DNA of 64,000 nt from Streptomyces sp. NK08204 (GTDB lineage Bacteria; Actinomycetota; Actinomycetes; Streptomycetales; Streptomycetaceae): NCBI RefSeq assembly GCF_020400585.1, contig NZ_JAINVF010000011.1, positions 1-64,000 on the forward strand, given 5' to 3'. The position numbers were made by a program, and so were the translations under genes. Below are positions 35,191 through 37,063 of the stretch, piece after piece. Position 1 is the stretch's first letter; each line of letters starts with the position of its first letter. The notes under the pieces are model-generated. The model did no database searches, was not told the origin of the DNA, and saw only the letters and a list, made by a program, of their open reading frames with translations.

Positions 35191-35296
35191 GTCCGCCTCC
35201 GGGCAGTCGGTGGTGCGTCGTGTGCAGGGTGCAGTCGACTGTCGTTGTCTGTTGCCGTTTGCCGGTTGCCGTTGGTCGGTTGTCCGTTGCCGTTCG

Positions 35297-35331
35297 TCGC
35301 CTGTCGCCTGTCGCCTGTCGCCTGTCGCCTG
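35297..35331. repeat. Five perfect copies of a 7-bp tandem repeat
   Basis: TCGCCTG is repeated five times without error. It lies in a 267-base spacer (35191-35457) that is unusually T-rich on the plus strand, with several diverged GTTGCCG/GTCGGTT units before the array. I see no gene or terminator in that spacer. Confidence 0.85.
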
Positions 35332-35457
35332 TGGATCGTCGGCCCGATTCGATGGTGGCCCGGTCGTCGGGTGCCCTGCGTTGGTGTGTACCCGTCCCAC
35401 GGCCCGTCCATGGGCGGTAGCGCGCATCACCCGGTCACGCGCCGCGCCGCCGGCGTG

Positions 35458-36306
35458 TCAACGGTGCGCGGAGCGCCTGCGGCCGTACACCCGGTGGACG
35501 GCCGCCCCGCAGGCGGCGGCGATGAGCGTGCTGCCGGCCACCAGGGCGGGTACCGAGTCATTGAAGGCGCCTCCTGCCCCGGCCTCCACGCCGTGCTGCA
35601 CGCCGGGCGGAGGGCAGCCGCCGGGGTCTCGGAACTCGCGGCAGCCCGGGGCGTCCGGGCAGGACCGGTCCGCGGCGCACGGGTGTTCGTGGCCCCCGCC
35701 GCCGCCCACGTCGTCTCTGCCGCCCCCGCCGCCGCCCACGTCGCCTCGGCTGTCTCCGCCGCCGCTCACGTCGCCTCTACCGCCCCCGCCACCGCCCACG
35801 TCGCCTCTACCGCCCCCGCCACCGCCCACGTCGCCTCTGCCGCCCCCGCCACCGCCCACGTCGCCTCTGCCGCCCCCGCCACCGCCCACGTCGCCTCTGC
35901 CGCCCCCGCCGCCGCTCGCGTCGCCTCTGCCGTCGCCGCACTGGCCGGGCTCCCGGCAGTCGGAGCCGCTGGGGCAGGGCTGCCCCGGCGGGCAGGGCAT
36001 GCCGCTCTGGCAGTTCTCGCCTTGCCGGCAGTTGCTGCCGTCCCCGCACGGCGTGCCGGCCTGGCAGGGGCGGCCGTCGCCGCACTGCCGGGTGTCCGCG
36101 GTGCCGGTGCCCGCGTCGCCCCTCAAACCCTGTGGGACGGCGTGAAGGCCCGGCACGGCCCCGGTGCCAGGGTCGCAGGAGTCGGATGCGAAGACGGTGA
36201 CGGCGGCACCGGGCCGGGCGGGGCCGGCCTCGGCGGCGGGGCCGACCAGGGCGAGCACGGCACCGGCGACGAACGCGACGGACAGGGCACGGGCGGTGCG
36301 GCGCAT
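35458..36306 (-). CDS. Exported, C-terminally anchored Cys-ladder / RGDV-repeat protein
   Basis: A 282-residue protein of unknown family. A signal peptide spans residues 1-27 (AFVAGAVLALVGPAAEA). Residues 75-123 are a strict hexapeptide ladder with cysteine every sixth position (75, 81, 87, 93, 99, 105, 111, 117, 123), units such as CQAGTP and CPSGSD, glycine usually fourth. Residues 127-199 are a decapeptide repeat, consensus GGGGGGRGDV, with RGD at 127, 137, 147, 157, 167, 177 and 187 and RDD at 197. Four more cysteines follow, then a hydrophobic anchor (252-270) and a basic tail GRRRSAHR. There is no LPxTG motif. ATG at 36306 follows GAGGAG. Confidence 0.8.
   Translation of the reverse strand: MRRTARALSVAFVAGAVLALVGPAAEAGPARPGAAVTVFASDSCDPGTGAVPGLHAVPQGLRGDAGTGTADTRQCGDGRPCQAGTPCGDGSNCRQGENCQSGMPCPPGQPCPSGSDCREPGQCGDGRGDASGGGGGRGDVGGGGGGRGDVGGGGGGRGDVGGGGGGRGDVGGGGGGRGDVSGGGDSRGDVGGGGGGRDDVGGGGGHEHPCAADRSCPDAPGCREFRDPGGCPPPGVQHGVEAGAGGAFNDSVPALVAGSTLIAAACGAAVHRVYGRRRSAHR
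35707..35946 (-). repeat. 30-bp coding minisatellite (GGGGGGRGDV decapeptide)
   Basis: Eight 30-bp units run through the surface-protein gene, encoding residues 121-200. The central four units are nearly identical at the DNA level and the outer units are diverged, the pattern of recent expansion by slippage or unequal crossover. The period is a multiple of three, so changes in copy number keep the frame. Confidence 0.85.
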
Positions 36307-36501
36307 GGCGTGGGCTCCTCGGCGGAACGGCGGCGATGGGGTCGTACGGCGCTGTCGCGCGGTGGTGGGCACGTGGTGGTGCCCCTCGCTGCCATCACAG
36401 CCCCCCGGACGCCGGAGCGCCCGCGGCGAGACCCCATTCGCGGGACGCGAACGGCCCAATGGGTGACCCGCCCCGGCCCGCCCCGCCTCACCAGGTCTTG
36501 C

Positions 36502-36805
36502 CCGAGGGCCTGCTGCGCGTGCTGGATCCCGATGTCCGGCTGACTGCCGACACCCCTGACGGTGCGGTCGTCACGCTCGGCGCCACGAGGTCGCCGCCGT
36601 GGCGCGGCTGTCCGCCGCCGTGGCGGCGCGCGGGCGCGCGGTGCTCGTCAACGGCCTGCCCGCCAGGTGTCCTGGCGTGCGGACGGCACCCTGCTGTCGG
36701 TCATGACGTTCACGGTCGTCGACGGGCGGACCGCCGGCATCGCGACGTGGCCGACCCGGCCAGGCCCGCGCCGATGGACCTGCCGGGTCCGGAGCAGGTG
36801 CCGTC
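36502..36805 (+). pseudogene. ECF sigma factor (SigJ-type) C-terminal SnoaL-domain remnant
   Basis: Three pieces in alternating frames read as the SnoaL-like tail of actinobacterial SigJ-type sigma factors: GLLRVLDPDVRLTADTPDGA, then VSWRADGTLLSVMTFTVVDG with AGIATW, then ADPARPAPMDLPGPE. At least two frameshifts separate them, and the sigma2 and sigma4 DNA-binding regions are missing upstream. It is non-functional. Its 3' end runs into the convergent DUF6158 gene. Confidence 0.65.
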
Positions 36806-37063
36806 TCAGCCCGCGGGTGTGTCCGGAGTCGCCGACTCGCCGCAGCCTCGTTCGCGGGCGCCCTCGCGGGTGCGGCCCGCGGTGACCAGGCGGCGCGGGT
36901 TGCGGCGCAGGTACTCGCCCTCCAACTGCGCCATGCGCTCGTTGTGGGCCCGCAGCGCGTCGTTCGAGCCGTACAGGAGGGTGTCGTGGCGCGTGCGGTG
37001 GATGGTCTCCAGCTCCTTCATGAGCTGCTGGTCGTCCAGCCTGCTGGGGTCGACTCCGGTCAT
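36806..37063 (-). CDS. DUF6158 family small protein
   Basis: An 85-residue soluble protein recognised as DUF6158, an actinobacterial family. The conserved text DDQQLMKELETIHRTRHDTLL and LRAHNERMAQLEGEYLRRNP forms two long amphipathic helices, likely a coiled coil. Function is unknown. ATG at 37063 gives the usual family start MTGVDPSRLDD. An upstream in-frame start is unlikely. The 195 bases to the ABC-F gene hold no recognisable feature. Confidence 0.75.
   Translation of the reverse strand: MTGVDPSRLDDQQLMKELETIHRTRHDTLLYGSNDALRAHNERMAQLEGEYLRRNPRRLVTAGRTREGARERGCGESATPDTPAG

Follow-up and report, generated by a model that had tools for sequence, protein, structure and literature searches.

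Which function could be served by a predicted surface protein of an actinomycete in which nine cysteines recur at every sixth residue and are followed by a regular array of RGD tripeptides? The question is raised by a gene of Streptomyces sp. NK08204 that lies in a 64,000-nucleotide stretch of DNA, hereafter called the window. An earlier note on this locus had regarded the protein as an anchored adhesin displaying multiple RGD, and its cysteine ladder as a left-handed beta-helix or a disulfide-stapled rod.

The open reading frame (Table 1) begins with an ATG preceded by a GAGGAG sequence, the GC fractions at its three codon positions are 0.79/0.71/0.89, and both ends of the protein are kept in frame across the orthologues of the stalk gene. 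The hydropathy of the protein peaks from residue 7, in the region of the signal peptide, the conserved start of which supports the earlier proposal of an exported protein; export would proceed by the Sec route, judging from this signal peptide. The protein contains 15 cysteines, six of them outside the ladder (residues 44, 210, 216, 222, 231 and 266), and in the second, shorter cluster C222 is invariant and C231 nearly invariant among 16 family members chosen for alignment. Scanning the whole protein at E<=1 returned DUF3188 alone from Pfam (E 0.25) and zero NCBIfam models, the Rfam scan of window positions 35200-36900 gave no match at E<=1, and a plasmid search, from which records of the own genome were possibly excluded, gave no match at 1e-5. 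About 125 bp past the stop codon, a 7-bp perfect tandem repeat (GTCGCCT, 5.3 copies) occupies window positions 35296-35332.

Table 1. Features of the stalk gene and of its upstream region, in window coordinates
Feature	Position	Strand	Basis
Anchored stalk protein CDS, 282 aa + stop	36306..35458	(-)	ORF; ends in frame with orthologues
Ribosome-binding site GAGGAG	36315..36320	(-)	Upstream sequence comparison
Sec-type signal peptide, residues 1-27, cleavage site inferred	36226..36306	(-)	Conserved MRRTARALSV-like start
Cysteine ladder, residues 75-123, C-x-x-G-x-x units	35938..36084	(-)	
RGD decapeptide array, residues 121-200, seven RGD and one RDD	35707..35946	(-)	
Second short cysteine cluster, residues 210-231 (210, 216, 222, 231)	35614..35679	(-)	
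C-terminal anchor, residues 234-282: GVEAGAGG motif, membrane helix, basic tail	35461..35607	(-)	
Conserved upstream block, probable promoter/operator	36392..36467	(-)	Orthologue upstream comparison
Leader inverted repeat GGGCAC-N6-GTGCCC	36367..36384	(-)	

The window protein is not an orphan; it is one of many orthologues in a Streptomyces family that has no family-level Pfam or NCBIfam model. At E<=1e-3 the whole protein has matches in 51 of 150 genomes of the genus, some few of which involve low-complexity stalk alone, and a profile of the last 49 residues matches 172 of 392 genus genomes at E<=1e-6, the weakest of which could belong to sorting-type proteins of another kind; outside the genus, but within the same bacterial family, the best match has an E-value of 9.6e-7. 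The 155 distinct family proteins compared below, which include the short L096 and the masked L159, were taken from 183 loci among the matches listed rather than from all 172 genomes. L153 (G181), which gives the best whole-protein match, has GGGRDGGGRDG within its stalk. The family is recognised by a signal peptide, a C-terminus, a gene order and a promoter block that its members share, and all four are found at the window locus. With regard to gene order, the window and 20 homologous loci share a holin/phosphodiesterase-like gene (in 20), an MBL-fold gene (17), a VTT-domain gene (15), DUF6158 (10) and an ABC-F-like gene (9), these counts being lower bounds owing to the short stretches taken around the stalk gene; the synteny rests on clusters other than cluster 1, where the window gene is absent (wrong-strand gene call). 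Neither the profile scans nor the open-access literature searched yielded a described family of such kind, in keeping with the earlier note, which was aware of none, but the protein does have many orthologues.

Among the aligned members the two ends of the protein are constant and the middle is hypervariable. The common plan of the family runs from the signal peptide through an Ig-like domain and a variable low-complexity spacer to the anchor. The Ig-like domain, profiled from 35 members that contain it (selected for pattern, length and list order), is matched in 115 of the 155 proteins at E<=1e-5. In the AlphaFold2 model of L019 (residues 31-140) it comprises seven strands, with pLDDT of 90-97 in all ten-residue blocks except two (82 and 67). 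Foldseek returned no hit at E<=0.001 with this domain, and VIA gave generic Ig-like matches (best Z 8.1), from which, being generic, we do not infer its function. Neither the Ig-like profile nor the ladder nor L017 (a ladder-containing relative) retrieved a PDB entry at E<=10 in sequence searches. The spacers of other members include PT repeats, Gln-rich and Cys-rich stretches, and GQDG, GRDG, KQDG, GHDG and PRDG repeats.

Searching the window protein for the Ig-like domain gave no match. The domain is similarly undetectable in 11 of the 15 members that possess a ladder, window protein included, versus 29 of the 140 others. The four ladder members that keep an Ig-like match are L003 (48.6 bits), which is the nearest row to the window protein in the tree, L016 (partial), L046 and L167, so that the replacement of the domain by the ladder is not strict. 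The branch to which the window protein belongs would mostly have lost the Ig-like domain, and its spacer would hold the Cys-x-x-Gly-x-x ladder.

The translated reading frame confirmed the nine-cysteine ladder at exact period 6 (residues 75, 81, 87, 93, 99, 105, 111, 117 and 123), with cysteine in 9/9 units and glycine at position C+3 in 8/9. We propose that the ladder is probably under selection; four observations are relevant to its origin. First, when the stalk (residues 29-232) was shuffled 20,000 times, no more than 6 cysteines fell in register, whichever period between 2 and 15 was considered, so that a run of nine was never reached. Second, relatives keep the six-residue period, the loss of which would have spoken against the earlier proposal: 14 of the 154 other proteins have at least three cysteines at spacing 6, the window protein having the longest exact run (nine), before L017 (eight) and L095 (six), with runs of five in six members, of four in two and of three in four. 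Family-wide, 6 is also the commonest distance between cysteines (136 pairs, as compared with 6 pairs at distance 5, 41 at 7 and 55 at 8). Third, the ladder clusters on the family tree, a weakly supported tree built from the constant ends (148 of the 155 members, 65 columns, 13 of 145 inner branches starred). There the five rows nearest to the window protein are all ladder proteins, and the ladder label requires 6 changes versus a mean of 12.5 when shuffled among the 42 rows that make up the two groups tested, none of 500 shuffles being as low. Fourth, outside the cysteine and glycine codons the ladder units of the window protein are only 38% identical in DNA; that cysteine and glycine are kept despite this divergence points to selection on the Cys/Gly frame rather than to recent slippage. 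In a further member, L021, which keeps the Ig-like domain, cysteine spacings alternate between 8 and 6, placing 11 cysteines in register at period 14 and giving a ladder of a different kind.

These observations also bear on whether the ladder and the RGD repeats could both be slippage products that merely fill the space between the two ends, which together with the promoter would be all that matters. The wide differences in length and sequence between the stalks of family members would suit such an unconstrained filler, as would the low pLDDT of the ladder (see below). We nevertheless consider it improbable, in view of the retention of cysteine and glycine by units that have diverged in DNA, of the recurrence of spacing 6 in diverged relatives that cluster on the tree, and of the length of the run as compared with shuffled stalks.

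As regards the structure of the ladder, the left-handed beta-helix proposed earlier was not supported. The AlphaFold2 model of the ladder is of low confidence (block pLDDT 38-65) and contains no regular helix, and hexapeptide profiles of Pfam matched neither the window protein (E<=1) nor 16 family members (E<=0.1). Left-handed beta-helix hexapeptide repeats carry an aliphatic residue at the repeat position, where the window protein has a cysteine. Most likely, the ladder would form a disulfide-stabilised rod-like segment, which would extend the protein in the envelope or crosslink it there. The best reading of the sequence is that the stalk protein may act as a surface-tethered spacer stiffened by disulfides, and the number of ladder cysteines being odd, one of them would pair elsewhere or stay free.

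More tentatively, and as a reading that is less likely than not, we propose that the ladder could be an independently evolved bacterial disulfide rod, either a beta-helix or a zipper, that would have replaced the Ig-like domain on a developmentally controlled stalk. By analogy with the beetle antifreeze proteins, its beta-helix form would be right-handed, with 12 residues per turn, each turn being closed by a C(i)-C(i+6) bridge. The beetle antifreeze beta-helix is indeed described as having cysteines 2 and 8 of each 12-residue coil bridged, and the repeat of TmAFP (1EZG) as TCTxSxNCxxAx, with inward-facing C, S, C and A at every third position (PMC8038014). Cysteine recurs at every sixth residue in both proteins, and the C-x-x-G-x-x pattern of the ladder equals the inward pattern C-x-x-S-x-x-C-x-x-A given in that source (PMC8038014), a likeness that is one of analogy, not of homology. 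The window ladder differs in being devoid of TCT, in having glycine in place of serine or alanine, and in containing several prolines, and searches of Pfam and PDB (the latter at E<=10) found no sequence match between the two.

In the zipper form, the rod would be intermolecular: the ladder would adopt a polyproline-II-like strand presenting cysteine or glycine at each third residue on one face, and its cysteines would pair in register with those of neighbouring chains, thereby crosslinking a surface layer. The period-3 alternation of cysteine and glycine, the proline at the sixth position of 4/9 units and the odd number of cysteines are all consistent with in-register pairing. This variant of the rod, to which geometry leads us, is seen in no structure or homologue, the ladder model is of low confidence, and we regard it as unlikely in its own right.

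In contrast to the ladder, which is probably selected, the RGD array is probably not. Its seven copies occur at every tenth residue from 127 to 187, one further copy lies at residue 62, and the eighth in-register unit reads RDD (residue 197). The description of the array as a GGGGGGRGDV decapeptide repeat stood with regard to the exact ten-residue distance between the seven RGD, but the exact decamer is present in four units alone (147, 157, 167 and 177). Shuffling the stalk (20,000 times, residues 29-232) gave at most 6 RGD. In DNA, the array is a 30-bp tandem repeat of 8.3 copies with 91% matches, which supports the in-frame expansion suggested earlier, and the seven RGD decamers are 90% identical to one another, as is expected of a recent tandem duplication.

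Looked for across the family, conservation of RGD by selection was not found. RGD occurs in 10 of 154 stalks (the masked protein being set aside) versus 18.2 +/- 3.5 expected by shuffling; since fewer proteins will contain a given tripeptide when stalks are repetitive, this shortfall is to be read as a lack of enrichment, not as avoidance. The related tripeptides GRD, RDG, DGR, GDR and DRG occur in 25, 22, 21, 9 and 6 of these stalks, and the copies amount to 56 for GRD, 41 for DGR, 38 for RGD, 35 for RDG, 14 for GDR and 7 for DRG. Given the alternative Gly/Asp/basic repeats of other stalks, such as that of L153, RGD is one of several permutations of such a repeat. Three or more copies are found in just three of the 155 proteins (the window protein, L169 and L177), which corresponds to two changes on the weakly supported tree. 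L169 and L177 carry separate RGD arrays of 14 and 9 copies, mostly at period 8, and keep the Ig-like region. It is the frequency below shuffled expectation, the two origins of the arrays and the 90% identity of the units that lead us to regard the array as probably unselected.

The same data weigh on the adhesive role that had been attributed to RGD, according to which the stalk would present multiple RGD to the integrins of an animal host or of another eukaryote. Seven RGD at exact spacing on a predicted exported and anchored stalk are what such an adhesin would possess, the separate arrays of the two relatives could be seen in the same light, and the most diverged decamer (at 187) still reads RGD, a weak hint of constraint. 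This role is nevertheless very improbable, since RGD is rarer in stalks than shuffling predicts, arrays are few and trace to two changes on the tree, recent duplication explains the likeness of the units, and one of the eight units reads RDD. We rather propose that the Gly-rich array would be a flexible charged spacer, grown by tandem duplication of the 30-bp unit, in which the RGD tripeptide is incidental. More generally, where RGD lies within a Gly/Asp/Arg-rich repeat, its reading as an integrin ligand needs a family-wide control.

How the stalk would be held at the surface depends on its C-terminus. The C-terminal membrane anchor proposed earlier was supported by a modelled helix (residues 251-280) and a basic tail (RVYGRRRSAHR), as in GVDTG-type C-termini. 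In the family as a whole the C-terminus consists of GVxAGxGG, a membrane helix and a basic tail, and resembles the sorting signals of class F sortases. A V/M-x-[T/A]-G-x-G-G motif, a membrane helix and an Arg-rich tail are common to these C-termini and to those of GVDTG_CTERM proteins (NF058571). At E<=1 NF058571 matched all 21 family C-termini given, a level at which it also matches 10 of 14 control genomes, none over the cut-off; at E<=0.1 it matched 20 of the 35 full-length Ig members. The window C-terminus scores 23.5 bits, below the cut-off of 29. The threonine that precedes the glycine, invariant in 18 aligned GVDTG C-termini, is replaced by alanine in 152 of 153 family members and by glycine in one.

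Aligning the two sets of C-termini with hhalign gave a probability of 92.5 and superimposed GVxAGxGG on HVxTGxGG; 21 of 28 family C-termini were used, together with 18 of 24 GVDTG strings (near-copies and one wrong-frame string being excluded), 6 of 30 GVDTG loci having given no string. With the 21-row alignment the real score was 34.3, full column shuffles reached at most 27.8, and shuffles of the motif half reached up to 40.1; with the 153 members, 2 of 200 motif-half shuffles reached the real score. As motif-shuffled controls of the 21-row alignment exceed the real score, a good part of the resemblance is due to the membrane half. Because of these mixed controls and of the alanine in place of threonine, the stalk C-terminus is best termed sorting-signal-like, at the level of sequence, rather than a class F substrate.

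Within approximately 1.5 kb of 26 of the 30 over-cut-off GVDTG loci (L297-L326), a sortase-like ORF bears the signature [LI]R[VL]ITC, which we take to be that of class F sortases, an assignment that does not come from a class-specific model. The GVDTG exported proteins and their adjoining sortase-like ORFs are likely to form dedicated enzyme-substrate pairs. The genome of our strain encodes seven sortases (PF04203), four with the signature LR[VL]ITCGG, two with TLTTCTP and one with neither. A GVDTG-profile hit is found close to each of those on contigs C20, C27, C91 and C1, the hit on C20 alone being over the cut-off, and the own-genome GVDTG-type loci L275, L279, L281 and L283 stand beside sortase-like ORFs. 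The stalk gene differs from these loci in that none of the PF04203 hits is on its contig (C13), besides the alanine in its motif and its sub-cut-off score. With regard to the other sorting signals, TIGR01167 had no match listed for the window C-terminus and weakly matched 2 of 21 relatives' C-termini (best E 0.05). The protein would be held at the surface either by its single membrane helix or by way of a class F-type sortase that would transfer it to the wall, the latter being a possibility.

Two kinds of surface proteins invite comparison. Chaplins are Streptomyces surface proteins with cysteines, some of which are sortase-anchored; the window protein has no chaplin Pfam match (E<=1) and no LAXTG, and a search for LPXTG- or LAXTG-type sortase substrates found no such pentapeptide before its membrane helix. 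SspA of Actinoplanes missouriensis is described as exported, 191 aa long and needed for rigid sporangia; its ectodomain is predicted to be disordered, and its C-terminus bears a wall-sorting signal (PMC13293333). Its anchoring is assigned to the class E sortase (PMC13251363). Compared by description, SspA resembles the stalk protein, an actinomycete protein with predicted export and a sorting-signal-like C-terminus, and is unlike the window protein in that the available description mentions neither a cysteine ladder nor an RGD array (PMC13293333). As reported, SspA shows that reproductive structures can owe part of their strength to a wall-sorted protein of disordered structure, and it is the closest functional precedent that we found (PMC13293333, PMC13251363).

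A possible link of the stalk gene to development comes from its upstream region. A block of approximately 76 bp lies upstream of 140 of the 155 members (15 with weaker cores were dropped from these counts), mostly about 110 bp before the ATG; the upstream alignment used 19 of 20 strings, L009 being excluded. The pattern GTCACCC..GCGAAT, which joins the left half of the block to its core, has a single match in the own genome when up to 3 mismatches are allowed, and the core by itself is matched more loosely at other places, which are less numerous than those of the reversed control. TCACCC stands in its set place in 132 of the 140 members versus 0 of 136 in a control stretch. It is the half common to both motifs published for BldM, namely TCACcCgnncGgGTGA for BldM sites (Group I) and TGnnCCGnnCGGGTGA for BldM-WhiI sites (Group II), as given in PMC4125116. 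Of these sites, the TCACC half and GG are retained in the family block, which is devoid of the outer second half; the BldM-like site of the window, TCACCCATTGGGCCGT, is imperfect, its second half fitting neither published motif. Scans for sigma-70 promoters and terminators found none. Closer to the gene, the leader inverted repeat has a mean stem of 7.68 versus 5.25 when shuffled (133 members) and could be an operator or an RNA hairpin. The conserved block with its BldM-like half-site would direct expression during aerial growth or sporulation, and the stalk gene is perhaps expressed in development under putative BldM control.

Together, these data lead us to favour, with fair though not strong confidence, the proposal that the gene encodes a Streptomyces cell-surface stalk protein comprising a probable disulfide-stabilised ladder and a spacer in which RGD is incidental. 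To our knowledge, surface proteins of Streptomyces other than chaplins and rodlins have received little charting. Here the cysteine ladder offers a small and concrete structural motif that is open to testing, and the family, widespread and syntenic, in which the two ends and the promoter are conserved but the middle evolves freely, amounts to a natural experiment on what the envelope needs from a spacer.
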